Position numbers and translations under genes: made by a program
From: Corynespora cassiicola
Lineage: Eukaryota > Ascomycota > Dothideomycetes > Pleosporales > Corynesporascaceae
NCBI GenBank assembly: GCA_022059125.1
Contig: JAEUWY010000001.1
Coordinates: 1,302,001 to 1,366,000 of the forward strand
Length of the DNA stretch: 64,000 nt
Direction of reading: 5' to 3'
The notes under the pieces: model-generated
Told to the model about the DNA's origin: nothing
The model's input: only the letters and a program-made list of their open reading frames with translations
Databases searched by the model: none
In this document: positions 21,822 through 62,705 of the stretch, in pieces
Layout: the number at the start of each line of letters is the position of its first letter
How positions within the stretch are numbered: position 1 is the stretch's first letter

Positions 21822-22742
21822 ATGGCGACGCCTACACCAGCTCCCCGAAAACCAACCGGACCCCGCCAGATCGATGCCGATGGACGCGAGCGCACAAAGC
21901 CCATGCGCGTGCTCGTGCTGGGAATGTGCCGCACCGGAACTTCCACCATAGCCTACGCGCTGCGGAGATTGGGCTACACGCCGCACTCGATGCGCGAGCT
22001 GCTCGTCAAGCCCAACGAGATCAAGCTTTGGCATGAAGGGGCACAGCTCACCCTCCTCCCGCCGTCGGAACGCTCCGCAAAGCAGCAACGTCTGAAACCC
22101 TACGGACGAGAAGAGTTCGACAAGCTACTCGGCGACTTCGACGCCGTGACTGACCTCCCCGGGTGCGTGTTCTACGAGCAGCTGATCGAGGCGTATCCGG
22201 ATGCGAAGGTCATTTTGACCAATCGGCCCTACGAGGATTGGGAGGAGAGCATGCAAGCGAGTATCTGGAATTTGTTTACCTGGAAATTGTTTGCGCTGTG
22301 CCGCATTCTCTACCTAACGCAAATGTCCTCTTTGATGCGCTTCCTGCACACCATCTTCCGCTTTCATAACGGAAATACGTATGGTGGACCCAAGGCCAAG
22401 GAGGCATACGAGGAACATTATTTCAACGTCCGAAAACTTGTCCCGAAAGGTCAGCTGCTTGAGATTGGGATGGATGATGGATGGGAGCCGCTGTGCAATT
22501 TCCTTGGGCACGAGGTTCCGAAAGAGCAATATCCCTTCGTGGATGAGAGCAAGACAATGAGTACGCAATTGGGAAAGGCATGGTGGGGGATTGTAACTTA
22601 TTTCTTGTACATGTTTGTGGTTCCGGGGGCTGTGGCTGCCTTGGGTGCATTGCTATATGTCAACCAAGATGCGGTCGTTGGTTATTACGAAGAGTTTTCA
22701 GAAAAGGCGATTGCATTGCTGGATTACTATCTTAAAGACTAG
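21822..22742 (+). CDS. Sulfotransferase-like P-loop protein with C-terminal membrane segment
   Basis: Single exon, 306 aa. VLVLGMCRTGTSTIAYALRRLGY near residue 30 is the 5'-PSB (P-loop-like) motif of the Sulfotransfer_4 family common in ascomycetes, and DLPGCVFYEQLIEAYPDAKVILTNRPYEDWEESM is the 3'-PB/RxxxxW region. These proteins are often labelled NAD-dependent epimerase/dehydratase in databases, although the fold is sulfotransferase-like and the substrate is unknown. A hydrophobic stretch (VTYFLYMFVVPGAVAALGALLYV, positions about 22596-22664) anchors the C-terminus to a membrane. The start is the ATG in AACCACAATGGCG. Confidence 0.85.
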   Translation: MATPTPAPRKPTGPRQIDADGRERTKPMRVLVLGMCRTGTSTIAYALRRLGYTPHSMRELLVKPNEIKLWHEGAQLTLLPPSERSAKQQRLKPYGREEFDKLLGDFDAVTDLPGCVFYEQLIEAYPDAKVILTNRPYEDWEESMQASIWNLFTWKLFALCRILYLTQMSSLMRFLHTIFRFHNGNTYGGPKAKEAYEEHYFNVRKLVPKGQLLEIGMDDGWEPLCNFLGHEVPKEQYPFVDESKTMSTQLGKAWWGIVTYFLYMFVVPGAVAALGALLYVNQDAVVGYYEEFSEKAIALLDYYLKD

Positions 22743-26257: not shown

Positions 26258-27196
26258 ATGGTCCACTGCAAGAAAACGCCCCAATTCGACGCTAAGCGCG
26301 ACATCCCGCAACTGGATGGAAAAGTCATCCTCGTGACAGGCGGCAACGTCGGCCTCGGAAAACAAGCCATCCTCGACTACGCCCAACACAACCCAGCCCA
26401 GATATGGCTCGCAGCGCGCAACTTGGACAAAGCCGCCGCGGCCGTCAAAGAAATTCAAGAAGAACTCCCCAACACCGCCCTGCCACCCATCCACCTCCTC
26501 CAGCTCGATCTCTCCTCGCTGGAGTCGGTCAAGAATGCGGCCCGCACATTCATGGCGCAGACCGACCGCCTTGACATCCTAATGCTCAACGCCGGAATCA
26601 TGGCTGCGCCCCCAGCCCTCACAAAAGACGGCTATGAAGTGCAGTTCGCGACCAATTATCTCGGACACGCGCTCTTCACGAAGTTGCTCCTCCCCGTGCT
26701 CGGCAAGACAGCCGCACGCCCCGACGCCGATGTTCGCATCGTGACTGTGTCTTCAGACCTGCACACCAATGCGCCGAAGGAGGGGATCCGCTTCGACGCG
26801 ATCAAGTCGCAATGCGAGGACATGTCCGCGTACGAGCGGTACGGGCAGAGCAAGCTCGCGCAGATCCTGTGGGCGAGGCAGATGGCGAAACTGTATCCGC
26901 AGTTTACGGTCGCTTCGATCCATCCTGGCGTTGTGAGGACGAATTTGCAGGCGGGTGCGACGGGGCAGCCGCGTGTGTTGCAGTTCGCGATGAATGCTAT
27001 GCACTTTATGCTCACGCCTGTTGAGCAGGGTGTCAGGAATCAGCTTTGGGCGACGGTTTCGAAGGATGTGCAGAGTGGAGAGTACTACCATCCGGTTGGT
27101 GTTGGGGGTGAGGGGTCGAAGCTGGCGAGGGATGGTGAGCTTGCGAATAAGCTGTGGGAGTGGTCAGAGAAGAATCTTGCAAATCACACCATTTAG
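26258..27196 (+). CDS. Short-chain dehydrogenase/reductase (retinol dehydrogenase-like)
   Basis: Single exon, 312 aa. Classical SDR features: VILVTGGNVGLGKQA (TGxxxGxG cofactor site) near residue 25, LDLSSLESV, LMLNAGIM (NAG), IVTVSSDLH (catalytic Ser), YGQSKLAQ (YxxxK), and HPGVVRTNL after it. NAD(P)-dependent oxidoreductase of unknown substrate. It borders the RiPP-like cluster; it could be a tailoring enzyme or simply a neighbour. Its coding sequence is clearly GC-richer than the surrounding AT-rich DNA. Confidence 0.88.
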   Translation: MVHCKKTPQFDAKRDIPQLDGKVILVTGGNVGLGKQAILDYAQHNPAQIWLAARNLDKAAAAVKEIQEELPNTALPPIHLLQLDLSSLESVKNAARTFMAQTDRLDILMLNAGIMAAPPALTKDGYEVQFATNYLGHALFTKLLLPVLGKTAARPDADVRIVTVSSDLHTNAPKEGIRFDAIKSQCEDMSAYERYGQSKLAQILWARQMAKLYPQFTVASIHPGVVRTNLQAGATGQPRVLQFAMNAMHFMLTPVEQGVRNQLWATVSKDVQSGEYYHPVGVGGEGSKLARDGELANKLWEWSEKNLANHTI

Positions 27197-27303
27197 TTAT
27201 TATATTTTTCTCACTCTTGTTACTTTTATTCTCTACGCTTAGTATACATTTTTAAAGAAAATGAATTTATAAGGTATAGCTTATTCCTTTTCTACTAGTT
27301 ACA

Positions 27304-28644
27304 TTACAAAGTTCTATTCTCTAATTCTACTACTAACAGTGATAGTGCGCTACCCTCTGGTGTTCTTACTTCTTTTAGTACGAGTCTTGGGTCTGCAAGC
27401 TGCAAGACTCTGTTCCAGTCTTCTCTGTCTCGTTCCCTTCCATTCTGAATTTCTCGCATGGTGATACTAGTTGCACGCAGGAATCGTTGATCATACAGGC
27501 TCATGGTTCCCCAATCCGGTAAACAAGCATCGTTGATCAGAATCCTCTTTCCGCCATTTTGATTACTTTCCAGTGCCGGTACTAGTCGGTTTAGTACTTT
27601 CGCCGCGTAAGCGTCGCTCCAGTCATGTAGCACAAATCGTAGCAGGTAGATGTCTGCATCCAGGATAGGCTGCTCACAGAACATATCATGAGCCATCATT
27701 TTGACCCTGTTTGTAACATTGTGTGGGACGTTTGCAGCCTTTATAGCGTGAGGATGGTCTTGAACAACGAATTGGATTTCCTCAAATTCCATGGCAAGCG
27801 CAGTTGCAATAGAGCCACTACTTCCGCCAATATCAACCACTTTTTTCACATGACTCCATTCATAGCCACGAATTAGATGCTGTGGAGAAAAGGGTGGTGA
27901 CTCTAAAAAGATATTCATGGAGCCGGCGAATTCAGTTGCGCGATCAGAATCTCTGTTCATGACAACAAACATGGGTTCCGAAGTTCCTTTGGCCAGATTG
28001 AACCCTGCTTCATTCGGCTCCTGAGAATTTGGCCATTTCTGCATTGCATCAACCAGGCGCGTTGCAGAAGGTAACAGTTCATCTAATGCGATCCCGATGA
28101 AATTGACAAGGTTTGGAGAAGTCACAAGAAGACGAGACGCTGCCGTGTGTGCAACAACACCAGGCGATGGCTCACTGAAAATGCGATAGGTCATAGCGTG
28201 TCGAAGTATTTGTGTCAAGTCGTGTTCCATTAGCCCGGTAGATTTCGCTAACTCTGTGAAAGTCGTGGTAGATAGGAGGGGGACTGCAAATGCAATTTTG
28301 AAGCGTATGATAACATGTAGAGAAGTGGTTTTATTATGCTACATTCAAATTAGCTCAATACAGGAGATGATGAGATGTTGGCTTACCTCTTGTGCAAAGG
28401 TAGAAAGATGCTGTTTGGGCCCTTGTACGAGCGCAACTAGTTCGTCAGCAGCCTCGAGAAGTTCGTGCTGTTTGTCGTCCAGCTCGGGGGGGAGGCTTTC
28501 GGATGCCCCAATATCAAAAGATGGGTACGGTAGGTTTTGCTCTTTGAGATAGCTTTCGATTTCATTCGCATTGACATGAAGAATCTCGGCAAGCTCATGC
28601 AGCCGACCGTGAGCATTTGATTGTGGGGCTCTGATTTCCACCAT
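27304..28644 (-). CDS. O-methyltransferase 1 (plant/fungal Methyltransf_2 type)
   Basis: Exons 28644-28387 and 28338-27304 give 430 aa, typical of sterigmatocystin-type fungal O-methyltransferases. After an N-terminal helical dimerisation/winged-helix part (FTELAKSTGL, HAMTYRIFSEPSPGVVAHTAASRLL) comes the SAM site VVDIGGSSGSIA, QDHPHAI, and the conserved LRFVLHDWSDAYAAKVL with the catalytic His, then ILINDACLP. The 48-nt intron restores phase 0 and reads into a conserved-looking FKIAFAVPLL segment. Placed between the SDR gene (convergent) and a divergent UstYa-like gene; likely tailors the cluster product. Confidence 0.88.
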
Positions 28645-29015
28645 TTTGGGTAACAAACTTTGCAATATTGGAGATTTATTCCAACTGTCTACACAATCAT
28701 ATCTGAGTAGATGTGTCTTATACATTTTCAGTAGATGGTTTCCCTGAACATGAAAGTCGTATTGATGAGTCGACCAGGATGTGAATAAATGCAGCTTACG
28801 TTCTTGGTCCCCGAGCTGAGTGCTGCATAACCTTGCAAACACTTGGCGTTGGTACTGGGGCAGTCTGCAAGGATTAAACCCGGCGCAATGGCAAGTCATC
28901 TGCAGCCAGCTAATACTGTCGTGTAACATTAATTGATGCATCAATGCACATGACGGTTATTGAGGCTTTGTTTTCACTTGCCTCTCAAGTATCCCAAATT
29001 TTGTAAAGGCTCCTC
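28645..29015. promoter_or_regulatory. Bidirectional promoter, OMT1 / UstYa-like 1
   Basis: 370-base divergent region between methyltransferase 1 (minus) and the first UstYa-like gene (plus), suggesting shared control. A minus-strand open frame extends OMT1 upstream, but the ATG at 28644 is the natural start. No clear palindromic operator seen. Confidence 0.45.
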
Positions 29016-29797
29016 ATGTTCAATCGAATTCACAACATGTACTCCTTGAATCAATATCGGTACAAGATCCTTCCGAATGGCTTTACCAGAAAGGCCAGTG
29101 AGCATAAGATTTATCATTCTGTATTGGCTATTCTATTGATATTCTTCGGAATTTTGTGTTTCAACTTAGGTCGGGTGTCAAAAGGCTACTCTCTGGCCAA
29201 AACAGAGCCTTCCTGTAAGCCAGAAAATCATTAATATGCTGGGTAGATGACTGACTCTTCGAAGTACGTCTAGTAGAAATAACCTTTCAATATGAACGTC
29301 TGTTTGGTTCTCGGCCATCTCCTGAATCTGATTACGCTTGGCTACATCTTTTCCCTTCAGGAGCAGGGTTTTTCAATCATCCTACGCTAGCAACCAAACG
29401 ATCTGCATTCTCAACATTTCATCAACTCCACTGTCTAGATGGCCTCAGACATGGTTACTGGGAGTTATACGATGCAAACACATCGGGGAAGAAGCTAAAT
29501 GAAACCGAAATACCGTCAATGGCCCGTCCACCGCACATTAGGCATTGTATAGACCTCTTACGACAGGCTCTTATGTGCCGTCCTGATTTAACTATTGAGG
29601 AGAAGGACGAGGAGTTAGGTGGAGTGTCAGGTTTTGGTACAACGCATAAATGTCATGATTGGGATCAGTTGGTCTCGTGGACGAGGAAATGGCAAGATTG
29701 GGGAGTTGATAAAAATCAAGATAGTGAACAGGTAGTCCAGGGCCATAGTCATCATCATGATCAGAGTCATCAGATTATATCTGAGGAGTCTGAATAA
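29016..29797 (+). CDS. UstYa/DUF3328 family oxidase-like protein 1
   Basis: Exons 29016-29214 and 29265-29797 give 243 aa. Single membrane anchor near residues 33-54, then the two diagnostic motifs of DUF3328: HQLHC at residues 119-123 (in STFHQLHCLDGLR) and HIRHC at 157-161 (in HIRHCIDLLRQALMC). UstYa-type proteins are thought to be metal-dependent and carry out oxidative cyclisation of RiPP core peptides (ustiloxin, asperipin, phomopsin pathways) and of some other natural products. The C-terminus has HKCHDWDQLVSW, then a His/Ser/Glu tail. Divergent from methyltransferase 1. Confidence 0.9.
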
Positions 29798-30173
29798 ATC
29801 AACTGCTATAGCTATTCTATTTCTCCAGCTTCAATATGTTAATAAAACTCACATTATTTCATCAGATTCGGCATCCAGCTGTTGTAAATCAGATGGGACG
29901 AATAATTGAGACTGATACTTACGACCTATAATCTCTAGAACCCATAAATACGGGTTTCGCAATTAAATTTTCGCCCGGAAAATTCTATTGAGGATATACC
30001 TACGATAGAGCCTTCTTCATCTGCTTTAAAAACATGCTGAGCAGTTCATGTGCATCAAGGTCAATATATATCAGATAGTGCTATGTTTTATCCAGGCTAT
30101 CAAACATCATAGTGACCACGTTTTATAAGACTATTTCCCATTCCTGAAACCTGTACTGATTCAGATACAGTAT
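29798..30173. other. AT-rich convergent spacer
   Basis: About 375 bases between the 3' ends of UstYa-like genes 1 and 2. No gene supported. Confidence 0.35.
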
Positions 30174-30964
30174 CTAGTTACTGGGAGGAAAATCCGTATT
30201 CCTCTTATCTACCCAGTCAACTAGTTGCCACCAGTTCTTACATTGATACTCCACACCAAAAGCCATTATACCCTGGTGATACTCTGCCTCAAGCTGTACG
30301 GTAGTATCCGCATGACACATAACACTCTGTCTCAAAAACTCAATGCAATGAAGCATATGGGTCTCATCAACTTCGTGTTCGAAGTCTGGTTTTGCATGGT
30401 GGTTCGAAAGAGCCTCAATAGTGTCTTCCCGCTGGTAGTAGCCTCGTCGAAGAGCGTCCTGTATTCTTCATCAGCCATAAGCCTTGAGTGATAAACCAGA
30501 AATGAAACTTACAACACAGTGCAGCTGATGGAATGCAGCAAAACCAGCTCTTTCAGGATTATCGCCCCATTCGAAAAGCCCATGTGTATCCTTAGGGTAC
30601 AGAGTTTTCCATAGCTCTTCCGTCTCATTATCTGGATGCTGTAAAAACCTTCGATTGGAGGTGAATTTGACAACCACATCACTCACTGTTTTTCTTGATC
30701 AATTTGAATACAACTTAGTTGATACTGTTGAAGCCACTTACATTGCAAAGGTTCTTTAAAGCTCGGACGAAATGATTTAATGCCACATGTGGTATACATG
30801 TTTCCAGTAAAATAGCCACTAATGAAGGTAGCAATGAAAACAATCAAGGTGCCGATGACAGTGACTATCTTAGTTCGAAAGGGTTCTCGGATATAAACGA
30901 TGTGAGGGGACATTTCACCCTCCTCCTCCATGACTGGCTTGTACATGTGTTTGGGAGAGAGCAT
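30174..30964 (-). CDS. UstYa/DUF3328 family oxidase-like protein 2
   Basis: Exons 30964-30742, 30685-30513 and 30458-30174 give 226 aa; both introns (56 and 54 nt) are GT-AG with phases 1 and 0. Membrane anchor around residues 33-54 (VIGTLIVFIATFISGYF), then HQLHC at residues 127-131 (AAFHQLHCV, just before intron 2) and HMLHC at 166-170 (HMLHCIEFLRQSVMC). The ending CKNWWQLVDWV is typical of the family. Clearly divergent from proteins 1 and 3, so not a recent duplicate. Expected role: oxidation/cyclisation of the precursor core in the secretory pathway. Confidence 0.9.
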
Positions 30965-32434
30965 GGTGAAAGGTTAGATGAGTTTGAGCTCTTGGTGAAG
31001 AAGGGGAGAATCTGAATTGGAACTTGGTATTATTCGAAGAAAAACGACATGCAGCCTATGGACCGTTTCCATCTGACTAAGTCTAGACAGGTCTTTGAAT
31101 TGACTCAACAATCCTGTCGGTCATCAATAAGGAACATGCATAACCAGGAAGCTAGAACACATGGATATGCGCCTTCATAATGATTGGATCTCCTGCCCGG
31201 GTCAAGTTCTGAGAAGTATTCTAAGACCAATATGTGGGCTGATAGAGAACAGCAGTAATCATAAACAGGGATTTTTATTTGAAGGATCCCATCTCAGCCC
31301 CCACACGCCTCTGACACTCGTCGGGTAATCAGATTAACATTCGTATCTCGTGTTTTAAGCTAGGTAGTAACTTATAAGCTTGTGCTTTGTCATGCTTCTT
31401 ACTCGTATAACCTAAGCTCGAAAAGACTTAAAGGATCTGGCATAGAGGGGGTTTCAATCTATACGATGGGTGTGCTTCTCGATTTGAAACACGTTTATGC
31501 AGTTGTTCGCCCTCTCAAAGGACTTCGATAAGTACAGCATGGATTGCACTGGGATCGTTCCAAGGTTTTTGGTAACCCGATAGTATTAACCGACCTTGGC
31601 ATTGTTATACGAATATCTGACCCATGAAGAGTGCAGCATGCATCGGGTTGGTTCAGTCCCAATGCTTTGGTAACCCGATGATATTTGCCGCCCTTGGCAA
31701 CACCCCACAAGCGGGGAACTCTGCGAGGCAATCTGGGGTTGCATCAACGATTGTTAGCATGCCTAGGGTTGGTTCAGTCCCAATCCTTTGGTAACCTGGC
31801 GATGTTTCCCGTCCTTAGCAACACTCCCCAAGCGGGTAACTCTGAAAGACGATCTTAAGTCACATCAAAGATTGTTGGCAAAGTTCAGTCTGACCGAGGA
31901 CTGTACGGATTGTATTGGTCACTTCTCTTTCCGATTGAACTCTACATCTCTGCTGCATAAAACAATGCTTTGGAAATTGAACCTACTACGTTGACAGGTA
32001 CTAGATGATTTGGGGAGATAGTGGACAGATTGTTTGGCTAGGTATTCTATTCCCAAAATTTAAGAGAGTAAAATGCTGTGCCATGGACTCAGATGGATCC
32101 TGGCGAGCTAGCTTTTCCATTCCATTATATACCATTTTGTAACTATATCTAATAAGCCCTACTGCGTATCTACCTTTTACTATAACAAAAAGCTATCCAG
32201 TATTGAAAAACTAATTGTTTGAAATATCTAGGAAAATAAATTTAAATATGAGAGATAGGGTTAGTGATTTGTTAAGAAAATCAGAATGTCTTCGCAGTTA
32301 GACATATATGATGTATTGGGAATATTCTAGAGCCATGCAGACTCAGTTACATATAGTCTATCTAGATACAAGGAGCAAAACCCTATAAGCTAGCCATGAC
32401 ATTTCTCCAACTATCTCTTGTTGGAAACTTATAC
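30965..32434. other. 1.5-kb interval with degenerate tandem repeats
   Basis: Gene-free region between UstYa-like gene 2 (minus; promoter here) and the 3' end of the precursor gene (minus). A TGACTCA heptamer lies near 31103 upstream of UstYa-like 2. The middle (31536-31880) holds a degenerate tandem repeat. The rest is AT-rich, and open frames inside the repeat are not credible genes. Confidence 0.4.
31536..31880. repeat. Degenerate ~121-bp tandem repeat, 2 full and 1 partial copy
   Basis: Two copies start at gcatg (31636 and 31757; period 121) and share ggttggttcagtcccaat, ctttggtaaccygryga, ccttrgcaacac and caagcggg blocks with many point differences. A third, shorter and more diverged copy begins near 31537 (ggtttttggtaacccgata, ccgaccttggca). 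It lies just downstream of the precursor gene. Could be an old minisatellite or the remnant of a transposon tail. Confidence 0.7.
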
Positions 32435-32812
32435 TCAGTATTCCTCAGCATAGAGCTTTTCGTCGGGGTAGGCGACATTCTCGTCAAGACCAGAGCGTTT
32501 GTACTCCTCCGCGTAAAGCTTCTCATCAGGATACGCTACTTGTTCATCCGAATCTCCAGGTTCACGTTTGTATTCTTCGGCATAGAGTTTTTCGTCAGGA
32601 TATGCGATCTTATCGTCGAAACTGGCTGTTTCGCGCTTGTATTCCTCTGCATATAGTTTCTCATCCGGATATGCTACGACCTCATCCGAATCGCCTGTAG
32701 CAGTTAGCCGGTTCACGTTATCGTTAAGATATATCGTACGTTGAAGAGGCTTGGTTGGCGCTGCCATAGCCATAACGCTGAGGGTAATAGCTAGAGTAAC
32801 GGAGAGCTTCAT
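32435..32812 (-). CDS. Putative RiPP precursor with four Kex2-bounded core repeats
   Basis: Single exon, 125 aa from ATG 32812. Residues 1-18 form a signal peptide; a short leader follows to about residue 45. Then come four copies of the identical 12-residue segment AYPDEKLYAEEY (47-58, 70-81, 93-104, 114-125; the last ends the protein). Copies 1-3 are each followed by Lys-Arg (59-60, 82-83, 105-106), a Kex2 cleavage site, and an acidic, variable 9-11-residue spacer. This is the layout of fungal dikaritin precursors: secreted, repeat-bearing, Kex2-cut, with Tyr-containing cores oxidised by UstYa proteins. The 36-nt core copies differ at most third codon positions yet encode identical residues, so the peptide is under selection. 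Flanked by UstYa-like genes on both sides. Product structure and activity are unknown. Confidence 0.88.
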   Translation of the reverse strand: MKLSVTLAITLSVMAMAAPTKPLQRTIYLNDNVNRLTATGDSDEVVAYPDEKLYAEEYKRETASFDDKIAYPDEKLYAEEYKREPGDSDEQVAYPDEKLYAEEYKRSGLDENVAYPDEKLYAEEY

Positions 32813-33456
32813 CTTATGTTGCGTTTCTTGAATGAATCTTTGCAGATCAGATATTTAGGAGATAGCCAAGACAGCGACTGCACAAAGAACTTTTAGCATG
32901 AAAATTCATGTCTACATAGCTGGCTTTTATGGAAAAGAAAAGGACGGAACCTCTTTGGGCTGTATCTGAGTCTGTTAACTCAATGTGAATAAGACTACCT
33001 CCTGAAAACGAACAAGACATTTCTGCGTTACATCCGGCGCTTAACGGGAAAGAAAATCCTTCCAAGAATATTTTATCTTGGATATTGTTCTAGTTCTCAG
33101 ATTTCGGATTCCGAAATATATTGCTTGCATGAAGATGGCAAAACTGCATGCAGTATTGCGTTCACCAACAAGTTTGCTGTGACACACCCACAATCTCGGG
33201 TATAATCAGGGTACAGCCATGATTACCTCAAGCAGGGATATAGCTAGCTGAATGGATGTCGTATAATCCTTCGCTGACAAAATCCTGGTACCGTTTTCTA
33301 ATCGAGAGACAGAATCCCGGAAGTGGTAGCAAGATGCAGTAAGACCGGAGTAACATTATTGCCTTCAGTACGGTATGGGGTTCTGCCATTCAATTCGAAA
33401 ATCAACGTCTCTCAACCCACGCAGAAATCATCACAAATTCAATATACAACGCAAAA
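32813..33456. promoter_or_regulatory. Divergent promoter, precursor / UstYa-like 3
   Basis: A 644-base divergent region serving the precursor (minus) and the third UstYa-like gene (plus), AT-rich, with the perfect palindrome at 33101-33117. Small open frames here are not supported as genes. Confidence 0.55.
33101..33117. promoter_or_regulatory. Perfect 17-bp palindrome, candidate regulator site
   Basis: atttcggattccgaaat: arms of 8 bases around a central t. It contains CGG-N3-CCG, the layout bound by some Zn2Cys6 dimers, and sits mid-way in the divergent promoter between precursor and UstYa-like 3. A partial match (cggattcc) occurs near 42391 upstream of the bZIP gene. Binding protein unknown. 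Confidence 0.45.
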
Positions 33457-34273
33457 ATGGCTGACATGGACGCTTTTATTGAAAATAGTGATGAACGTCT
33501 GCCATTTCTGGTCCGCGAATCAATCGATGACGGGTTAGATAAATCTCGATTCAGTGGCATAAAAGATTTTTTCTTCAATAAGAAAATATACTTGCATGTT
33601 CTTTTAATAATCGGCTACACGTTGATAAGTTTCGTCGTCATCCTTTCATTCCACCAGCCTATATCACAGCGGCGGCATAATGGTGAGTTTCTTGCAGCTT
33701 AAACCAACTATGACATAAATCTTACACTCATAAGCACTCCAGGATATCAACATTTACTATGAGCCTCGCAAATATTCTCTCATGCGGGATAGTCCCTATA
33801 TTGGACCACCTAGCAATGACGTAGACGCTGCATGGAACAAACTTTTCAACAGCATGTCTGTCCGCGTTTCCGTTTCTGAACTATCCTACAACAACCAAGA
33901 ATCAGTTCCACTCCCTAAAGGCGGACATCTTGCCTGGCTTGGCGTGTACCACGAGCTTCATTGCGTCAAAGTCCTTCGACAAGCTAATTACCGTGACTTC
34001 TATCACCCCAATATCACAGTCGAAGAATTAAGAGACCTACAAGTTCATGCAGATCACTGTGTGGATCTTTTACGCGAGGCTTTAATGTGCCATGGAGATA
34101 CTGAGAGTCTGACCACGTTCATCTGGAGTGAGAAATGGACGAAACCACTGTTGAGCCCTCAAAGATCATATCATAGATGCATGAATTGGGATATACTTGT
34201 TGAAAGTTTGAAAGGTCGAATTGTTGATGAGGAAGAGATGGATGGCTTAAAGAACCCAAGGCTTACTGTATAG
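33457..34273 (+). CDS. UstYa/DUF3328 family oxidase-like protein 3
   Basis: Exons 33457-33682 and 33735-34273 give 254 aa (intron 52 nt, GTGAGT ... taag; the acceptor at 33734 is the one that keeps frame). Acidic N-terminus, membrane helix at about residues 43-63, then the fuller DUF3328 pattern: RDSPYIGPPSNDVDAAWNKL, HELHC at residues 148-152 (VYHELHCVKVLRQ) and HADHC at 180-184 (HADHCVDLLREALMC). This longer form resembles UstYa proper, while proteins 1 and 2 are shorter variants. Divergently transcribed from the precursor. Confidence 0.92.
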
Positions 34274-34587
34274 AACTTGCATAGCAAATCAATGTATCAG
34301 AATATAAGATTTGACATCTTTTTGTTGATTACATATGTGGGCCGTAGATATGACGTGCTTCTCTTTTGGGAGAAAAACACAACAAATCAACATTGTGAAT
34401 TCTCACAAGCGTCATATGTGAAAGAGTTAGATTATATAGGGCGCAAATTAGTCACTGGATACAGTCCACTTTCTAGTCCGGATTGACGATTGCTAGCTAC
34501 GAATACAGAAAACACCTCAAAAACCTCCATCAAGAACAGCTATCTTATCCATATCTAGACACCACATGATCATATAGCCTTGACTTC
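34274..34587. other. AT-rich convergent spacer
   Basis: About 310 bases between the 3' ends of UstYa-like 3 and the rhodopsin-domain gene; only a short unsupported open frame. Confidence 0.3.
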
Positions 34588-35779
34588 CTAAACGACATGA
34601 TAGGTACCGTTTTGGGTGTTGGGGGGAATCGGGACAGAAACAGACGACTTTACCGATGACTTTGACGTGATTTCAAAGACATTTTCTTTTTGGCTTTCGA
34701 TCAATCCCCTATCACGATTCCGAGTCCCATGACTAAAATGAAGTGATTTGAGAGGGTTACCAGAAGCCATAAGCTTGTCCCAAAGCGGTTTGAGAGGGGG
34801 AATACAACCGCAAAACAAGACAACAAAGTTCTCCGTTCCGGCCCAAATTACCAGCTCATACATTTCCCAAGTAAGGTCTTCACGTTTTCCAAGGTTAGCG
34901 AGTAAACTGGTTTTTATACTCCCGGCTACCGCAGCACTGAGAAGAGTAAAAATTAGCCTAAGCAAAGCTACGAGTGAGTGAATACTTACAAGAGTCCAAG
35001 ACCCAGAAGGATACACAAACAAATCTTTTGCTTGATGGGCATCTGCAGTTTCCATAGGAGCGTAGCAGGAATCACGGCAAGTACACCGTCCACAAACACG
35101 TTGTACGCTGGCTAGGATTAGCAAAAGTGTGTTCAAGGTGAAAGATACTCACCAGCTTGTGCTATTGATATATTGGTCTGGATACTGGGATGCCAACACT
35201 TAGCATCCGTTATTGTCTTATCCCACAGTGCTTTCGGCGGATCGCATTGGACGTATGTAAAGATGCTGTCCAAGGTGTTTATGATGATCATCAAGGTGAT
35301 GGATACCACAATAACCCAGAAGCGCCATCCGCGAAAAGGCCTCATGATGCGGTTAATGAGCAAAGCCACTGATAATTTTGCAGGAGTGCAGGCAAAAATG
35401 CCCCAGCATTGGAAAGCGTAACTCCATTTTAAAACCTCGAACATGTCATTTGGCTTCAGATAGTAAAGATGTCTCGTTCCACCAGCCATTGCATAGGTGG
35501 TTACAAAAGCTGCGAGAACGATTTGAAAAAACTTTGAAAATTTAGCGTCATGATCGGATCTCTTGCAGTAGCACATACTAGGGTAATGGCCATCGTCCAA
35601 TCATCCCAGCCATAATTTTTGGTCAAGTAGCGTGCATACATCCGAAGGGATACTATCGTTATGGCTAGAAATCCTTCTACCCAATAGATGGCGATCAGAG
35701 AAGCGGCACGGTTCTCATCCCCCCCATCGGGAACTGCAAGGGGGGGAGGCGGAGGTGGCGCAGTGCTCTTGTCACTCAT
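34588..35779 (-). CDS. Fungal rhodopsin-domain integral membrane protein (PTH11/SAT4-like)
   Basis: Exons 35779-35579, 35531-35153, 35107-34990 and 34936-34588 give 348 aa. After a Pro-rich N-terminus come about seven hydrophobic helices with family features: LRMYARYLTKNYGWDDWTM in the first loop, the GGTRHLYYL turn, KLSVALLINRI, CDPPKALWDKTITDAKCW and VFVDGVLAVIPATLLWKLQM, then NLGKREDLTWEMYELVIWAGTENFVVLFCGCIPPLKPLW. Such Fung_rhodopsin-domain proteins are 7-TM, suspected receptors or cluster-associated membrane proteins; role unproven. All three introns (47, 45, 53 nt) close the frame. Confidence 0.87.
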
Positions 35780-36366
35780 GTTTATGAGCGTGAAAAAGTA
35801 AGTTCCAAAGAGGGGAAACCGTTGTTAGATATCGCAATACTGTCGTGGAATGCGTTGATGACGACTCGTAAGCTCACTCAGATCGAGCGGCGGGGGAAAA
35901 TAATAAGTTAACTGGGTCTGCAGCGGAACAGATTGGCCAGTCGAGCTGGAAGGTGGTACAAACTTCTGAACCCCGGATACGATGTGCATTCGGGTACTAC
36001 CAACTTTTCACGGCCTTCCTGGAGCTGTTGTGGCGTTAGAGTTTTGAAGCCCATTTATCCAGACCCTGTCGGCATGGCCAAGTAATATCGCAGCCCGAGA
36101 CACGCCAGCTTGGCGCAGATGCAGCTACATCCTCTACAAGGGCTGCCGTCTTGCTTAAGCCATGCTAGCGCCGTGATAAGTCCAATACTTCACAATGCAA
36201 CATCTTTGCTTGATGCTTTTGTTTGTCATACGCGCACGTGCGAAGAAGCTGAAACGTGCATATAAATCCTTTGATCTTACATCATCCCTTCTACCAGCAA
36301 CCCAACTCTTCTAACCCCTCTAACGCTTAACTCGTCAAAATTTAGAACATAGCTGAAGGCATAGAT
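35780..36366. promoter_or_regulatory. Divergent promoter, rhodopsin-domain gene / OMT2
   Basis: 587-base divergent region. A TATAAAT box at 36261-36267 lies about 100 bases before the OMT2 start codon. No operator identified. Confidence 0.45.
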
Positions 36367-37747
36367 ATGGATGAGCTTCTGAAAAAGGTAGCGCAGGAGG
36401 TGGAGAAGGTTGCAGGGTCAGCCGATGAGCAGGCTCGTCGAAAGACGATCGATGCTTTGCGGGACCTTCAATACGCCTTAGAGACACCAGAAGAGACGAT
36501 GCAACGTCTTTTGTATACGGTAAATCACTTTTGTTTCCTGATAGAAAAATGAATCGTCGCGCTAAGTGGGCTAGAATTTGACGGCAGCCTCAATCAGAGT
36601 CAGCCTAGACCTTGGGATTTTCAACATTTTGACTCAAAGAGATGAGCCGCTGCCGCTTTCTGAACTTGCAGCAAAGACAAACGCGGACCCAGTTCTTTTA
36701 GGTTTGTTAACAGATTGAAAATCTGCTAGGAACCTATCTGATCGATCTTTAGGGCGTTTTCTTCGTCACCAAGCTTCGCTCGGTTACATTCGAGAAACCA
36801 GCAAGGACGAGTTCGCTGCTTGTAAAACAACAAAAAACCTCTCTGTTCCAGATATCCAGTCGGGACTGATATTCTGGTGAGTTCTTTGGTGCCCAAGTCT
36901 CTGGAGGTGGCTCTCGCTTAAGTAATGATAAATGCTCTAGTAACGATGTCTTGGGCCCTTCTTTCCAAGCCATCCCGGATTTCCTGAAGGAGAACAAATA
37001 CCAAAACCCTACAGAACTACTCAATACCCCCTTTCACAAAGCATGGAAGACTGATGTGCCATTGTGGACATGGCTGCATCAGCATCCCGAACAGACTACT
37101 CACTTCAATCGCTTCATGTATGCTCAGCGGTCAAGCTTGAAGAATTGCTTTTCGTTCTTAGCCATCGATGAAGATACTATCGGCTGGCCAAATGAAAAGC
37201 CCGTTTTTGTCGATATTGGTGGAGGCACAGGCCAACAATGCGTTGCTATTAAGGAAAAGTTCCCAGGAATGCCTGGGAAGGTGATACTCCAGGACCTGCC
37301 AGCTGTCATCGCGGAGGCTACATTACCGTCTGGAATCGAGGCACAGGCGTACGATTTCTTCAATTCGCAGCCTGTGAAAGGTAAGAAATACTTGTTAGTA
37401 TGAAAGGTCATACGAAGCTTATCGTGATTTCAGGCGCCAAGTACTATTACCTTCGGGCTATCCTGCATGACCATGCCGACGACAAATGTCTCGAAATCCT
37501 CAAAAACGTTGTGGATGCCATGTCAGACGAATCTTTCCTTCTACTCGACGAGATTGTGGTCCCCAATGAGAATGTCGAATGGTACGTGACGCAAACAGAT
37601 CTTGCAATGATGGTTCAGTTCTCATCTATGGAGCGTACTGAACATCATTGGCGAGAGCTTCTGGCTAAAGCGGGGCTGGTGGTTCAGAGTATCACCACGT
37701 ATACATACGGGTTTCGGCTTAGTATTATTAGAGCTGTCAAGAAGTAG
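36367..37747 (+). CDS. O-methyltransferase 2 (Methyltransf_2 type)
   Basis: Exons 36367-36519, 36575-36701, 36753-36876, 36941-37380 and 37434-37747 give 385 aa; all phases agree. N-terminal helices (LRDLQYALETPEETMQRLLY) resemble fungal natural-product O-methyltransferases. The winged-helix region has LSELAAKTNADPVLLGRFLRH, the SAM site is FVDIGGGTGQQC, and the C-terminal part has LQDLPAVI, YYYLRAILHDHADDKCLEIL (catalytic His in LHDHAD) and LLLDEIVVP. Distinct subtype from OMT1, so two different methylations, or one used elsewhere, are possible. Confidence 0.9.
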
Positions 37748-38391
37748 TGAAAAGGAATATAATTAGTGGTAAATCAAGTCAATGGAAGGTTTTTGCATAA
37801 AATTCCGAAAGATCGCCTTCTCTTGTCGTGAGATGACAGTGCCAATCTGTTCTTTCGCATTTTCGGCAGTACTTGTCCAATTTAATCCACTATTATTTTA
37901 TCCATTGCAGTGGATGAGAAAAGTACTGTACGCTTCGATTGATTGGGAGCTTTTTGGTCGGCTATGTTCTACCTATAAGTAGCATGGGCTAACAGGGTCG
38001 CGCTACTGCAAGGTCATGTAGGGTCTCGCGAAACTAGCCCCGAAACTAACGGCGCAGCAAAACTGGACTGGAACAACTGCAAAAAAATGTTCAACAAATT
38101 ATTTCAAAGATTATCAGAAAAGAGAGAATAGCTCTGACGGGATACTGACAGAGTCTATCGCGTTGTGCGGGAAGAAGCGGAGCAAAGCCGAGGAAGTTGT
38201 TTGAGACATTATTTCCCTGCGGGGATATCTAGTTCCCGCAGTCTTGTGATCGCAAATCCCAAAGTCCGAGATCGCACCGATAAGCAGCAAGTCCCACCTC
38301 TTCTCAAGGCGGGCGACAGATTTGAGCACTGCTCAAACAAATCAAGCTGGATAGGCACACCCAGGACTGTTTCCGGTAACACTGGGTCAAC
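37748..38391. other. Spacer upstream of the MFS exporter gene
   Basis: About 640 bases holding the 3' end of OMT2 and the promoter of the transporter; no gene supported. Confidence 0.3.
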
Positions 38392-40378
38392 ATGCCAGGT
38401 CATCAGCACAAGACAACAAAAATGGGAGCTAGCGCCACGACAATCGTGGCAGAGGTGGATGAAATAACGCCGTTGTTGCCAGGAAACGCCGCCGAAGACC
38501 AGGTAAGACTGAAATACTCTAGCCAAATCTTTCGCTAATAGCCTCGAGACATTCAGGAACGGATACCGAGACCCTGGAAGCCCCGAGATCGAGGCATGCT
38601 CTACGAACAATGCAGCCCAGGATAAGCCTGTCAAGTCTCTCATGGGGACAATCTCTGTGCTCTTGATAGGGGTCTTCATTTCGCAAGCCGATACGTCGTT
38701 AGTAATGGCGACATATGGCAAGATCTCCTCAGAGTTCCATGAACTCGAAAGTGGTTCGTGGCTGCTGTCGAGCTACATGCTTGCCATGTGCGTTTCGCAA
38801 CCTTTCTTTGGGAAGCTTTCCGACATCTATGGACGGAAAAGATGTTTACAGACAGCATACATATTGTTCGGTATTGGTACTGCTGGTTCAGGTTTAGGAT
38901 TGACAATGTCGCAGGTGAGCTCCATTTCAGATAAGAAAGCGTTGAAGCTGACTCGCAAAAGGTCATCATTGCCCGTGCTATTCAGGGTGCAGGCGGAGCG
39001 GGAATGGTATGCATGGTATCCATCTTGCTTACTGACCTTGTCCCAATTCACGAAGTAGCGGCTTATCGCAGCTATGTAAACATTGTCCAAACAGTCGGGC
39101 GGAGCTGTGGTGGAGCCTTTGGCGGGCTTTTAGCCTCTACTATTGGCTGGAGATGGGCTTTCTTGATCCAGTGCCCGCCGACGCTCCTTTCAATCATCCT
39201 CGTAGAATGGAAGTTGAAGTTGCCTCAGAAGAATCTGGAGGAAACCAAAAGCGAGACCAATTGGGACAAGCTTAGGCGTATTGACTTTGTCGGTGCCTTC
39301 TTCATGAGCTTAACTATCCTGGCTGCACTTTTGGTGCTCGACACTGGCGGACAGAAGTATGCGTGGACACACCCAGTCATCCTCTCTTCCTTTTGCTTGA
39401 CCATAGTCAGTGGCATATCATTTGCTCTGATCGAGAGATACTGGGCAAGAGAGCCAATCTTCCCGTTGCAGCTACTGACTCGATATGTCGTGGTTACTTC
39501 TTATACAAGCCTGTTGCTACAAAACTTTGCACAGTCAGCTGTAAGTCTTACTTTATTACTTAAAATGCTCCCACTAAAAGCTTGCAGTTGTTCTTTGTCA
39601 TTCCGATGTATTTTCAGGTTACCGTGAATGCTTCGCCTGGTGTTGCAGGCGCACATCTAGTTCCCTCGATCGCTGGTAATACAGTAGCTGGGCTGCTGAC
39701 CGGGGTCTGGGTCAAGCGGTAGGTTATGTGATAATTTCGGCGAAAATATACTAACAGAGCCCAGAACCGGAAGATACAAGGTTCTGGTCGTTCTAGCTGG
39801 AATCAGTACTGCTCTCGCATACACTTTGCTTCTTACTCTCTGGTGGGGTCATACCACACCTCTAGAATCCTTCGTCATATTTCCCGCGGGATTTGGAACG
39901 GGCCTAGTTCAATCTTGTGTCTTCATAGGACTGACTGCAAGTGTTGCCGACAAAGAGGTGGCCATTGCAGGATCAGGCCTGTATCTTAGCGGGAATATCG
40001 GGGCTGTCGCCGGTATCAGCGGAGCTAGTGCAATCTACCAGATTGGCCTAAAGGCAGGCCTAGAGTCTGCTTTGATAGGAAGAGAGGATTCAATCAGAGT
40101 AAGCCCCACTGTTGATGAGAACATTAAAATGATTCGAAAGTTGATTTGAGACAGATAATTTCTCAAGCCGTATCTGACATCAACTATGTTCAAAATGTGG
40201 GGAATAGCTTGCGACAGATGATGCTCCCTGCGTACATATCAGCGTTTCACTACGTGTTCAGTAAGTCAGTTTCTGCCGTAATTATACTAAACTGACCAAT
40301 ATAGTCCTCTGTCTTGTGCTAGCCACTATTAACTTTCTCGTGGCACTTATCACCAAGGAGAAAATATTATTGCGTTAA
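38392..40378 (+). CDS. MFS transporter, drug:H+ antiporter / vacuolar basic amino acid transporter-like
   Basis: Seven exons, 38392-38502, 38549-38914, 38962-39540, 39588-39718, 39765-40098, 40155-40260 and 40305-40378, give 566 aa (start could be the second ATG, 38422). About 14 membrane helices are expected: GVFISQADTSLVMATYGKI in TM1, the motif-A loop GKLSDIYGRKR, IIARAIQGAGGAGM (TM4), GAFGGLLASTIGWRWAFLIQCP, and C-terminal helices to LLR. This plan is the VBA/DHA2-like group, typical of exporters in secondary-metabolite clusters; it probably exports the cluster product. Intron 5 (40099-40154) removes an in-frame stop. The first intron's acceptor (38548) is the least certain junction. Confidence 0.88.
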
Positions 40379-40449
40379 AGACAAGTTCATGTGGCAAAAA
40401 CAGGAAGTCATTGGAAAACGCCTAAGTGGTATCTAGGGGAATGAGAACT

Positions 40450-41945
40450 TCAAACGGTCACTACCTCTGGCTCATCATTGGAATGTTGTTCGTGGATTAC
40501 AGCCGTTGGTATGCATTTCATGAACGGGAAACGGTCGGAGACAGTTGAACCCAAGGTCCAGTATTTGATTTGGCGAATATGGTTCTCGAAGACGGGATTC
40601 AACCGGAGTTCTGTTGGAGAAAGAGCAGAAAATATATTGGACTGTCCATAGGGCCAGTTGATCGAATTCGCTTTATTTGCGAGCTCTCTGAGGAGAGGGA
40701 ATTCAGACCAGTCCATGTGGCGGATCATTTGCTCGCGCGCTTCTGGCCTGATTGAGTTAGAATGAATAGAAACATGATATATAATAATGATACGTACCAT
40801 GCCCATACATCAATCCAGATTGGGTGCGGAACGGTCAGCTGTATTTCACGGGGTCTTAGATACTCCGGCAAGGCTTCGTAGTTTCGTTTTGTTGGAGATA
40901 TCAGCCATCTCAATAGGACACACATGTTATACATCATGCCAATCTTGGCAGGTAAACTAGGGATTTCCATGGTGATACGACCATGTTGACCGATTGCATT
41001 CGATATTGGACTCTGTTCGCTTTGGGTTTCCGGATTCAACAGCGATCGTATGCTCGGGAATGCCGGCTGTGAGAACTCAGCAATCGGGCCGGAAGATTGA
41101 ATGTGTTGACGACTCGATTCAAGAAGGCCCAACAGCACTTCGTCAAGTCGGCACATTGGCCCTATATGGAGTGGCAGTCGCTCCCATTGTGGAATCGGCT
41201 TAGGATCTTCAAGACTTGGCATCTCCAAATCAGTAGGGGACCATGTATCACCGATGGGGTTCAAGAGATCCATGAATGACAGAGAAAATGCATCGGTAGT
41301 TGTCATGTCCAAAGCTATACGTTAACATCAGTAAAAGTGTTATAGTTCGACCATCGTAGACCTACGGAAGCTCTCGTTCCAAAAATTATCAAAGTCTGTG
41401 GGTAGCGGTAAACCTAAAGTGAGCCCGGTATTCTCATCTCTTAAGGACAGCGACCTGACGCCATCGTTGGGGGAACCAGCCAGGGAGTCGGGACTGAGCC
41501 CGGGGGCCAGAGCAGAAGCCGGGCTTAGTGCAGAATCTAGATTTACAGACGGCGACGCTGTAGCTTGTGTGGTGGATGCGAACTCATCACTGACCGATGT
41601 GGCAGCAGGGGTCGATACCGGAGGTGAGGGTATCGGGGGTTGGGTCGACGCTGCACCTATCGTTTGCAGCGAAGAGCATGCGGAACTGATAACATCTCGC
41701 AGCGCTGTTTCATTCTTTTGTAAACGCTTGACCAGGTCTTCTGATTGCACGAGTCGTCGCTTGAGATCAGCGACCTCCTCTTCGAGCTCTGAGATGCGGC
41801 TCTTCTTGCGTGCCCTACAGATTGGTGAGCTATGTCATTGCGCCGCGCATCAAACAACCTACCTTGATGCCCGCTGATTTGCCCTGTCAAAAGCTCTCTT
41901 ACGGTATAACTGCTCTGTAGTCAAGTTTGCTACCGACCTGTCCAT
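40450..41945 (-). CDS. bZIP transcription factor with C-terminal DUF3425 domain
   Basis: Exons 41945-41863, 41814-41366, 41314-40798 and 40747-40450 give 448 aa with matching phases. The N-terminus holds the basic region (LYRKRAFDRANQRA, continuing RARKKSRISELEEEV across intron 1) leading into a leucine-zipper-like helix (LEEEVADLKRRLVQSEDLVKRL). A Ser/Pro/Thr-rich linker follows, then the DUF3425 domain, with PIWIDVWAW before intron 3 and EAREQMIRHMDWSEFP after it. This architecture is common in fungal bZIP regulators; it is the likely pathway-specific activator. Start chosen at the ATG just before the basic region; the upstream frame is open but starts at non-ATG codons. Confidence 0.88.
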
Positions 41946-44900
41946 TATGACACTGCCGAGGGAGCCCCGTAGACTATGTTCATTGGCCGCAAACGAGCCT
42001 GGTGGACGTGTTATGGAAGGAGAAATGTGCATTTCCCATCCTTCGCAGGCGGGCAATGCGTGCCATGGCCGCTGAATTGCGCAAGGCTCTGGCGTCCCTG
42101 GTCTGTGGAGTGGAGTGGACGGGGGCTGGGCAGATAACAAAAGGCGTTCCGTCATGGGTCTTTGGCCCTCAATGGTTTCGCTGATTGGTCCAAAACTACA
42201 TGACCGTGCATACGCTAGTCCACTTTCGTCTTTAGTCAGTATCGCGACATCGTCCCCAACCGTTACATCATCGTGAAAGTCGTTTGAGACAGAGAGTGGT
42301 GACTTAAAACCCTTCACAATAGTGCTTTAATGAGCTATTCATGTTCCTTGAATTGGTATTTCTGGTGATTTGACAAAATTCAGTTCGACTCGGATTCCTC
42401 GTTCGAAGAGGTGCAAGAACCTCCACCCCTCAGACTTTCTGACCTGCACATAAGTAGTTAGAGGAGATAGAGAAACAAGTGAAAACTATGACTAGAGAAT
42501 TAGATATGTGTTGCTGTCATCTGTCTTCTAGAACTGGACATTAACCGTAAGCTTCGATAAATCTTGTATCAGGATTTTCATGGCCGTCATTTCAAATCCA
42601 TCGAGTGGTCAATGACTGGATCTCTCTAGGTAATTTGAAGAAATCGATCAGAAATACTTTTAACAAGGTGGCCAATGAACCTGTCGCGGCGATGATCCAG
42701 ATCTATTTAAAACTAACAGTTGATGCGTGTTTCTAATTTGTGGAGTTCGTTAATGACAAGCCTCCATACTAAAGTGCTTCTTTTAGAGTGACAACAGGCG
42801 ATCTATACACTTGATGATGGGTAGAAAGGATACAACATGATGCTGAGACGTGATTAGTGTACAAAAGCATGAAAAAAAAACAGACCTTTGTCCCACAATG
42901 AAGCGAATGGAAGGGCCATCGGCATACCAGGGACTCACATTGCATGAAAAGGCGACTTCGCCATCCCTATTGACACTTTACTCGCCCTTTAAGGACTGTG
43001 AAGTATAGGATGCCTATACAACTTAGAGGGCCATGTGACGTAACTATTTCTGCCTAAATTGAGTCAGCTTACAGATTACGCCAGATTTTAAACTATATTG
43101 TAATTTCCCTACAGCCTTTTATGCTTACGGGGCAGTGTAGTGATACGGCCGATAAGAACATACGAACACCGAAAAACGAAACATGGCAATCCCCGAGGGG
43201 AATTTCCGGGGTAATGGATAGCGGCGGCAAATACGAGTCTTCCCAGGACTCAAGCGGCTACCCTCATTCTGCGCCCAGGAACTGCGACCAAGCTTTTACT
43301 GATCAGTGAAGGTTCAAGCTCGTACACCGTACTACTCAATTCAGTGCATGACCGATTGCGGATACTACGTGTGGCTAGATCCGGGACAGCCGGAGAATGG
43401 CAACAATATTGAGGCTGTACCTTTGCGCAGAAATATTGACACAGCTCGTCGATCTTTCAGAGCGAACAGTCTCGTGCCTCGATACGCTGCTGATGTGCAC
43501 GGTGGAGCAGTGCAAAGGCCGCGCACGCATCCATCCTCCATTCCACGCGCAGAAAGAGTTCTAGAACGTGCAGGATGCGCCCGCCCCCAAATACGATGCT
43601 TTTTTACGAACAGCAATCAAAAGACGATCCTGTATTCCCGCGAGCCCGGATAGATCGGAGTAGTCGAGGAGCCGCAAGCACACGACACCGGCCACGGCTA
43701 CGAGGGCGAGTGCATCGACCCGCCCAGGGCGCTCGACTTCCGGCACCAAGCGCTCTGGCCCTTTTGCACGCGACATCGCAGAAGCATCTCGACTCAGCTG
43801 TATAGGCAGGCTTAGCGTACCTAACACAGTACCCACCATCGCATGCACCCATCACGCATGATCTCGCACGCAGGCGTTGCCCCGACACCCTCGCCTGCCC
43901 CAGTCGAGGAAGAACCTTCCAGAGCCAATACATGCCTTACACGCGCGCGTTTCGCGTGCATCCGGGCCAACGCAGACATATGTCGCGCACGCCGTCCATA
44001 GTATACCAGAAACGTAGCATTGAACGGATGCCTTGCAACCCTCAATCGGTGCGACGCCGGTGGTACGGCGCAGTGGCGTATCGATCCGCAAGAACAAAGC
44101 GGGAAGAAGGGGGGTACCGGCAAAAGGGATACCCACAAACATCTCTCTCCCCGCTGAATAGACTTTGTACCTTGCATCAATCCTCCTCCAGTCCGCTCAC
44201 GAAAAGCAAAACAAACAAAACCTCGCCAAAAATCTCGAAAGCATCGCACAGAACTCGCGCTTTTCGCAGCATCTGCGCAGAAAGGACGTCCACGGCTATC
44301 CATCCCATCACCGCTGAGCTGGCGCGCCGCACTACGCCGGATCCGTGTTAGCGCACATGTACCCCACAATTTCTCCTTCCCTAGCGCCGCAAGCGTGAAG
44401 CGCAAAAACAGACGTCCGAGGAGACGAGACCTCAGCATGACATCATAGGCCGCGTCAGCGAATGTGTTTCGAGAAACGAAATGGGCTCGCCCAGTATTCC
44501 TGCAAGAAAAGTATTGCCTATAATGCGAGCGTGGGTCTGAAACTGGGGGCGGCGTGTTGCCTGGGCCATTGCTGCGGGTGAGGGAGGGATTGCGCGAGCG
44601 CGGGTCCCGCGTGTCGGGGCGAAAAAGACGGGTGTACGGCAACTGGGGAGGCCTTGTAAGAGAATGGTTATTGGGAGCGCGGCCTAAGAGCAAGGTTGAT
44701 GGGCTTGGGGGATGAGGCTTGGTGTTGGTGATTGGGCTCGGCGAATATTGTGAGATGACAGGGGGTTGGTCATGGGGAAATGTTGACGTGACGTGGTATG
44801 GCATGAAAGAGGACAGTGCGAGATTGGCAGGCAACAAAATTGATTGGGAGTATCTTAACACAAGCTTGATTGAAAGCTGCATATTACAACTAGGATAATG

Positions 44901-61736: not shown

Positions 61737-62705
61737 ACGAATGGCATGAATGACCGCGCGGGAAGTGTTTGGGTCCATATTTCTATCACTCATATAACGG
61801 AGGTCTATCATTGAATGTAGCTTAACATTAAATGAAGTTTATATTTCAATGGCAGATGTGATTTATGCCAAAAAAGAACCATTAATTTCTTAGCCATTTT
61901 GTGTTAGACGGTACAGGAGCCGAATTTAGGTTAAATCTTATTTCCTAGGACACCTGTGTCTATACATGAGCCCCAGTATTTTTTTAAACAAAACAAATGT
62001 TCTAATTTCTTTTCTATTATGGCTAAAACAGACCGGGCCTTCGGGTGGGGGCTGCATGCTCGCAGCAATATGCCAATCTGTTCTGGATTTTGGCGGGTGA
62101 AAGATCGACTATTCCGTCAAATAAAAACAAGAATCTCGAAAAGTAACTGTTCGATAATGATGTTTGCAGGCTGAGATTTTATTTTAATCACCATGATCAA
62201 CGTATGTTCAACGAACTCAAAGGTTAAGAACGAACAGAATACGTTGTCTTTGACAGCATATCATGAGCTTCAAAGTTCCCATATATATTATTGTTTACTC
62301 CTGGGCCGTACATTTTGCCTCCTTATGGATATTGAATCACGACAATATTAGTCGTAACGTAAACCACAAGCGAGCGACGCACACAAGCGAGCGACGCACC
62401 TCCTGACTGCTCCAGCAAACACTATCTATACATATAATGTCTCTACTAAAAGTCTTTTAATTATTAAATAACGAGCGATCCGTAATTCTTGCTTTTTTAA
62501 TTATTAAAAATAAATTAGTTTAAAGCGTATAATATACTACTACTATTTATAATATTTTAGAAGCTATAATTTATTACTAACGCTTTAAATAATTTATATA
62601 ATAAGCTCGGCTACAAGGGTTCCGCCCACCCCCTGGTTCCGCCCACCCTCAACAAACTTGCCCCTCCGCGTCAACCTCGATCACTTTCAACACCAGCCAT
62701 CCACA
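61737..62705. other. AT-rich interval and transposon left end
   Basis: Very AT-rich to about 62608, then abruptly GC-rich, where the transposon begins. Contains the 17-bp tandem repeat (62366-62399) and the ggttccgcccaccc direct repeat (62618-62648). No gene supported. Confidence 0.4.
62366..62399. repeat. 17-bp perfect tandem repeat
   Basis: Unit acaagcgagcgacgcac at 62366-62382 and 62383-62399, a GC-rich island in AT-rich DNA about 220 bases before the transposon end. Confidence 0.8.

Follow-up and report, generated by a model that had tools for sequence, protein, structure and literature searches.

The 64,000-nucleotide stretch of Corynespora cassiicola DNA analysed here (contig JAEUWY010000001.1, positions 1,302,001 to 1,366,000; hereafter the window) carries what is probably, at a likelihood of roughly 80% as judged from the sequence, a UstYa/DUF3328-dependent gene cluster for a dikaritin-type ribosomally synthesised and post-translationally modified peptide (RiPP), which we would call at about 27304-41945. 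A 125-residue precursor with four identical copies of a tyrosine-containing core lies among three UstYa genes and two O-methyltransferase (OMT) genes, and conservation of this core between two fungal classes is the most unusual feature of the cluster. The ustiloxin-type logic put forward in a preliminary description of the locus fits this anatomy and is backed by other fungi, in which homologues of the precursor, UstYa3 and OMT1 are found linked.

The precursor gene (32435..32812, minus strand) is a single-exon open reading frame (ORF), the hydrophobic N-terminus of which, MKLSVTLAITLSVMAMAA, appears by eye to be signal-peptide-like. The 12-residue unit AYPDEKLYAEEY, with three tyrosines, occurs in four identical copies, encoded on the minus strand at 32639..32674, 32570..32605, 32501..32536 and 32438..32473; units 1 to 3 are each followed by a Lys-Arg (KR) pair, and unit 4 forms the C-terminus with no KR after it. 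The four-copy, Kex2-punctuated precursor described earlier is therefore real. In a scan for repeats preceding KR or RR, with the window itself as background, the precursor was the sole pass among 622 stop-to-stop ORFs of at least 50 residues. The protein matches only itself in the 44.35-Mb genome, and a Pfam scan gave no family match for it. Between any two core copies, 6-9 of 36 nucleotides differ, and all 45 of the pairwise differences fall at third codon positions and are synonymous. At least 16 substitutions are required among the copies, none of them non-synonymous (p ~2.5e-10 under a simple neutral model of single changes, with transitions weighted twofold). Because the differences between copies are all at third positions, and the spacers vary in protein sequence, purifying selection acts on the core and not on the spacer.

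A search of 5.8 billion proteins at a cut-off of E<=1 recovered eight precursor homologues, six of them at E <1e-15. The latter comprise a protein of 99% identity from a contig of 603 bp, homologues in Periconia digitata (Pleosporales; 54% identity) and Ciborinia camelliae (Leotiomycetes; P0003; 38% identity), and three further proteins. Conservation was read from a nine-sequence alignment, to which the Ciborinia protein contributes its second unit in the first-unit block, and a listing of units by fixed pattern was excluded as evidence of conservation. Within that block YPDEK, Tyr7, Glu9 and KR are invariant, and the residue preceding Tyr1 is A, E, I, V or M, so that the conserved unit is the 11-mer YPDEKLYAEEY. 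The 12-residue core of the preliminary description is thus correct as to the identity of its four copies, but its Ala1 lies outside the conserved unit. In one homologue (P0004) Tyr11 is replaced by Phe in all three units, which suggests that the Tyr11 phenol is dispensable there, and Tyr1 and Tyr7 do not vary within the first-unit block. The available text of PMC7329392 describes great diversity among the repeats of Kex2-repeat precursors. In contrast to the diverse cores usual for the class, the core here is conserved from Dothideomycetes to Leotiomycetes, and one tentative reading, which we consider possible but well short of probable, is that a near-unchanged core belongs to an O-methylated, UstYa-oxidised peptide with one fixed target, such as a signalling receptor, and not to a fast-changing toxin.

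Linkage in other fungi was compared for homologues of the precursor, UstYa3 and OMT1 by means of locus tags or contigs of equal size in base pairs. The UstYa3 search yielded 17 matches at E<=1e-10, including the protein of the window itself and 16 foreign ones, and the scoring in the OMT profile search covered the 7,996 candidates with the most words in common, of which the best 120 of 144 matches are considered here. Precursor and UstYa3 homologues co-occur, across species, on three contigs matched by equal size, of 9,648, 24,333 and 3,027,279 bp, the last being from Periconia, where such matching says little about distance. On the 24,333-bp contig they are joined by an OMT1 homologue of 53% identity, and a second OMT1 homologue (52%) shares a 13,018-bp contig with another UstYa3 homologue. 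In Ciborinia the OMT1 homologue NHQ30_007736 (50%) and the precursor NHQ30_007738 are two locus tags apart. Consequently, all four precursor homologues on contigs longer than 9 kb are co-located with a UstYa3 homologue, an OMT1 homologue or both; the other four lie on contigs of 603-5,470 bp, which are too short to tell.

Several observations weigh against this reading, beginning with the indirect nature of contig matching by size. Two of the eight precursor matches, at E 0.09 and 0.1, are weak, and in Ciborinia no core copy among the four reproduces the 11-mer exactly, units 1, 3 and 4 having diverged to YPDEN, YRDEK and DEKPY, possibly through decay or because the product is different. The preliminary description had regarded UstYa loci that lack a repeat precursor in related fungi as adverse to its proposal, and here the evidence is divided: the four informative precursor contigs are all linked, but 13 of the 16 foreign UstYa3 homologues are on contigs that yielded no precursor, eight of these contigs being of at least 10 kb and five of less than 6 kb. 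Short, intron-split precursor genes may have been missed in the searches. Moreover, the Cudoniella UstYa3 homologue (g4255) has no precursor among the matches and the Cudoniella OMT match is elsewhere (g4613); Ciborinia, with precursor and OMT1, has no UstYa3 homologue among the matches at E<=1e-10; and Botrytis elliptica, with an OMT1 homologue of 49% identity, yielded no precursor. Among the best 120 of the 144 OMT matches, OMT1 is represented neither from Periconia nor from the 9,648-bp contig. In addition, the six intergenic regions of the cluster share no standout promoter motif, the numbers of 6-mers and 7-mers present in four regions (68 and 3, respectively) comparing with expectations of 53.5 and 2.6, and a check of these regions for four bZIP palindrome patterns found no instance of any.

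The three UstYa genes, all less than 4 kb from the precursor, have spliced models that match PF11807. UstYa1 (29037..29797, plus strand; exons 29037-29214 and 29265-29797; 236 residues; E=1.1e-24) carries the motifs HQLHC...HIRHC, and UstYa2 (30174..30964, minus strand; exons 30964-30742, 30685-30513 and 30458-30174; 226 residues; E=7.7e-24) the motifs HQLHC...HMLHC; both are assigned to the cluster from adjacency and family. UstYa3 (33457..34273, plus strand; exons 33457-33682 and 33735-34273; 254 residues; E=4e-40) has HELHC...HADHC and, as read by eye, one transmembrane helix. Both HxxHC motifs are therefore intact in each of the three proteins (6/6). With only 33% and 30% identity to UstYa1, respectively, UstYa2 and UstYa3 are no recent copies of it. 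In the family, the DUF3328 enzyme CctR is membrane-associated and its HxxHC(x)nHxxHC motif forms a binuclear copper centre, as described in the available text of PMC12435403. A structure model of the second exon of UstYa3, with the membrane helix left out (mean predicted local distance difference test 73, predicted template modelling score 0.48), places the two HxxHC motifs on a pair of helices that span residues 71-84 and 95-117, at moderate confidence. This arrangement resembles that of CctR (PMC12435403, available text), the likeness being one of motif and model, and the substrate of CctR is a non-ribosomal cyclic peptide, unlike that proposed here. A fold search of the model in PDB gave no match at E<=0.001 among 76, sequence searches of PDB chains with UstYa3 gave no meaningful match, and viral contigs scanned with either alignment, that of UstYa3 or that of the precursor, produced 22 pattern matches apiece and no confirmed one.

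From these components a pathway can be proposed in which the precursor would enter the secretory pathway and Kex2 would cleave after each KR, the sites predicting three fragments of 19-21 residues and a longer N-terminal one (KR not counted), each with one YPDEKLYAEEY. By analogy with the family, membrane-bound, lumen-facing UstYa enzymes with binuclear copper would then oxidise the peptide. That these copper-dependent enzymes crosslink it is somewhat favoured, most likely through ether or similar bonds from the tyrosine phenols, with Tyr1 and Tyr7 as the likelier acceptors since one homologue carries Phe for Tyr11. OMT1 may methylate a phenol or carboxyl group, exopeptidases would trim the N-terminal acidic spacer, and, to judge from adjacency, the MFS protein may be the exporter of the finished peptide and the bZIP-like/DUF3425 protein the regulator of the cluster. 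What the sequences themselves show is the gene layout, the selection on the core, the intact motifs and the linkage in other fungi, whereas chemistry, processing, regulation and product are deduced.

UstYa-catalysed hydroxylation or other C-H oxidation, followed by O-methylation, might instead give a linear methylated peptide with no macrocycle, an outcome that we consider possible but doubtful. It would suit the co-location of OMT1 homologues with precursor homologues, and Methyltransf_2 enzymes often act on phenols. Hydroxylation and halogenation are also known for DUF3328 enzymes (PMC12435403, available text), but where DUF3328 proteins lie next to Kex2-repeat precursors that contain tyrosine, they are reported as indispensable for cyclising ustiloxins, asperipin-2a and phomopsins (PMC7329392, available text), and linear and crosslinked readings are not exclusive. 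Outside RiPP biosynthesis, the precursor could encode an unmodified secreted signal or pheromone-like Kex2 peptide, with the UstYa and OMT neighbours serving another metabolite. The strong conservation of the core across two fungal classes is what a ligand with a fixed receptor would display, and most Kex2-repeat proteins (6,120 of 7,878) have no nearby DUF3328 gene (PMC7329392, available text). This is nevertheless unlikely, given the co-location of all four informative precursor homologues with UstYa3 and/or OMT1 homologues, the proximity of three UstYa genes in a genome where UstYa matches fall at no more than 26 places, each exon being counted separately, and the finding of no other backbone gene among the ten proteins between 26 and 42 kb that were scanned against Pfam. 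That the four copies are a recent, functionless tandem duplication in an ORF that is no real gene can be dismissed as extremely improbable, since the want of a Pfam match is outweighed by the wholly synonymous copy differences and the recurrence of the core unit in six proteins at E <1e-15 and two weaker ones.

The proposed RiPP cluster combines features of several known systems. Asperipin-2a resembles it in that the pathway includes a transporter, and differs in having no known methyltransferase and a core, FYYTGY, that is unrelated to the one found here; YVIPID of the ustiloxin/phomopsin group is likewise unrelated. Both methyltransferases in the window belong to Methyltransf_2, unlike those of ustiloxin B and phomopsin. 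As far as the available text of PMC12048977 describes, the asperipin-2a system also shares the Kex2 repeat precursor with a tyrosine-rich core, the UstYa oxidase and the lack of a tyrosinase, but it has a single UstYa and a reductase, where the cluster here has three UstYa proteins, two OMTs and no supported reductase counterpart. The KR-punctuated multi-copy precursor, several UstYa proteins, methyltransferase and exporter are common to ustiloxin B and phomopsin (PMC6941272, available text). However, those clusters carry a tyrosinase and an S41 peptidase (same source), and neither was matched in the window: none of 47 tyrosinase and none of eight S41 match places in the genome, from scans that score best candidates only, falls within it, in agreement with the earlier statement that no tyrosinase or dedicated peptidase is visible. 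The YAIG and YVIG cores of that group, as given in the available text of PMC7329392, are also unrelated. Across fungi, DUF3328 genes accumulate beside Kex2-repeat genes (PMC7329392, available text), and in the accessible part of the survey by Umemura (2020), covering 838 types of Kex2-repeat protein, 1,758 of 7,878 have DUF3328 neighbours, as here. The lichen RiPP Clan R1 has UstYa genes with an O-methyltransferase nearby, as in the window, but in the available account it includes genes for tyrosinase and sulfatase and lacks a recognised repeat precursor (PMC12048977).

UstYa-type clusters with repeat precursors are a common and known kind. The preliminary description held the core to be undescribed, and core-derived strings were indeed not found in the main texts of the open-access papers searched, supplementary tables being outside that scope; the repeat may already be listed in supplementary tables of repeat-protein surveys. 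The main text of a 250-secretome survey (PMC6339444) contains no YPDE string and mentions neither Corynespora nor Periconia, the available text on the Sclerotinia cluster (PMC6941272) gives no core sequence, and the main text of Umemura (2020) does not contain the core strings. According to the available part of a 2025 survey of lichen RiPPs (PMC12048977), no O-methyltransferase had previously been reported from a dikaritin cluster. The cluster here pairs a class-spanning conserved core with a linked O-methyltransferase. For YPDEKLYAEEY the calculated [M+H]+ is 1419.6314 when unmodified, 1417.6158 after loss of 2H, 1415.6001 after loss of 4H and 1431.6314 for -2H+CH2; inclusion of the preceding Ala raises the unmodified value to 1490.6685, to which the same shifts apply. 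Since the peptide is defined, its masses can be predicted and there are three distinct candidate copper oxidases, the division of labour among the UstYa proteins is directly testable.

The remaining genes are assigned with varying support. OMT1 (27304..28644, minus strand; exons 28644-28387 and 28338-27304; 430 residues; Methyltransf_2, PF00891, E=4.2e-25) is 98% identical to a protein recorded from Corynespora cassiicola Philippines. OMT2 (36367..37747, plus strand; five exons, 385 residues; Methyltransf_2 with a dimerisation domain, PF00891, E=8.1e-27) is assigned by adjacency, and none of the best 120 of the 144 OMT matches is closer to it than to OMT1. Adjacency is also the basis for including a membrane protein with a fungal rhodopsin domain (34588..35779, minus strand; four exons, 348 residues; PF20684, E=3.1e-45), the MFS transporter (38392..40378, plus strand; seven exons, 566 residues; PF07690 (MFS_1), E=5.5e-45) and the bZIP-like/DUF3425 regulator (40450..41945, minus strand; four exons, 448 residues; PF11905, E=8.6e-22). 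Pfam thus bears out the three DUF3328/UstYa genes, two O-methyltransferases, MFS exporter and rhodopsin-domain gene named previously. For the regulator, which had been called a bZIP protein, it supports DUF3425, but the basic region NQRASRARKKSR is read as bZIP-like by eye and has no bZIP match in Pfam. Three divergent pairs share intergenic regions, namely OMT1/UstYa1 (392 bp), precursor/UstYa3 (644 bp) and rhodopsin-domain gene/OMT2 (587 bp). Between UstYa2 and the precursor, at 31635-31876, there is a 121-bp tandem repeat in two copies, 81% identical, which matches only itself across the genome; a 34-bp part of it recurs at 31568.

At the left end, the short-chain dehydrogenase/reductase (SDR) gene listed in the preliminary description is present (26258..27196, plus strand; 312 residues; adh_short, PF00106, E=8.5e-23) but probably lies outside the cluster. 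It has no linkage support, and the G+C of its bin is 0.568 as against 0.40-0.47 across 27-36 kb, for which reasons the left boundary was drawn at OMT1. An OMT1 homologue in Hymenoscyphus fraxineus (HYFRA_00009464; P0043) is annotated as an SDR fusion, but because the SDR portion of this fusion shares no more than 29% identity with the SDR of the window, membership was dropped. About 3.5 kb further left is a Sulfotransfer_4 gene (21822-22742); speculatively, the core tyrosines, which lie among acidic residues, might be suited to sulfation by a sulfotransferase. Near the right end of the window, at 62589-63932, lies a transposase open frame with DDE_1 and HTH_Tnp_Tc5 domains.

Elsewhere in the genome, 10 kb around each of 14 other UstYa loci was scanned for repeats before KR or RR, and plausible Kex2-repeat open frames, as candidates, were found at four. 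The first (L019:6911-7624; C20:43911-44624) has ten QHEY(G/A)(L/V)DADE units, seven of which end in SANE-KR. Matches to UstYa (C20:41900) and to tyrosinase (C20:40814) lie less than 10 kb away, a layout like that of ustiloxin; three of the four repeat matches at this locus were dropped as overlapping-frame or low-complexity, as was an arginine-rich, low-complexity match at L022. A 111-residue frame (L014:7849-8181), the start of which looks signal-like, has four VDVSDGF units parted by KR and sits between UstYa matches close to a contig end. The other two were seen with no N-terminal start in frame: a repeat exon beside a UstYa gene, with four VGNLWHAK units and KR between them (L025:2761-3006), and, about 14 kb to the right of the window and beside another UstYa gene, a glycine-rich repeat with HHKGKGKGG motifs, punctuated by KR and RR (L016:7129-7866; C1:1379829-1380566).

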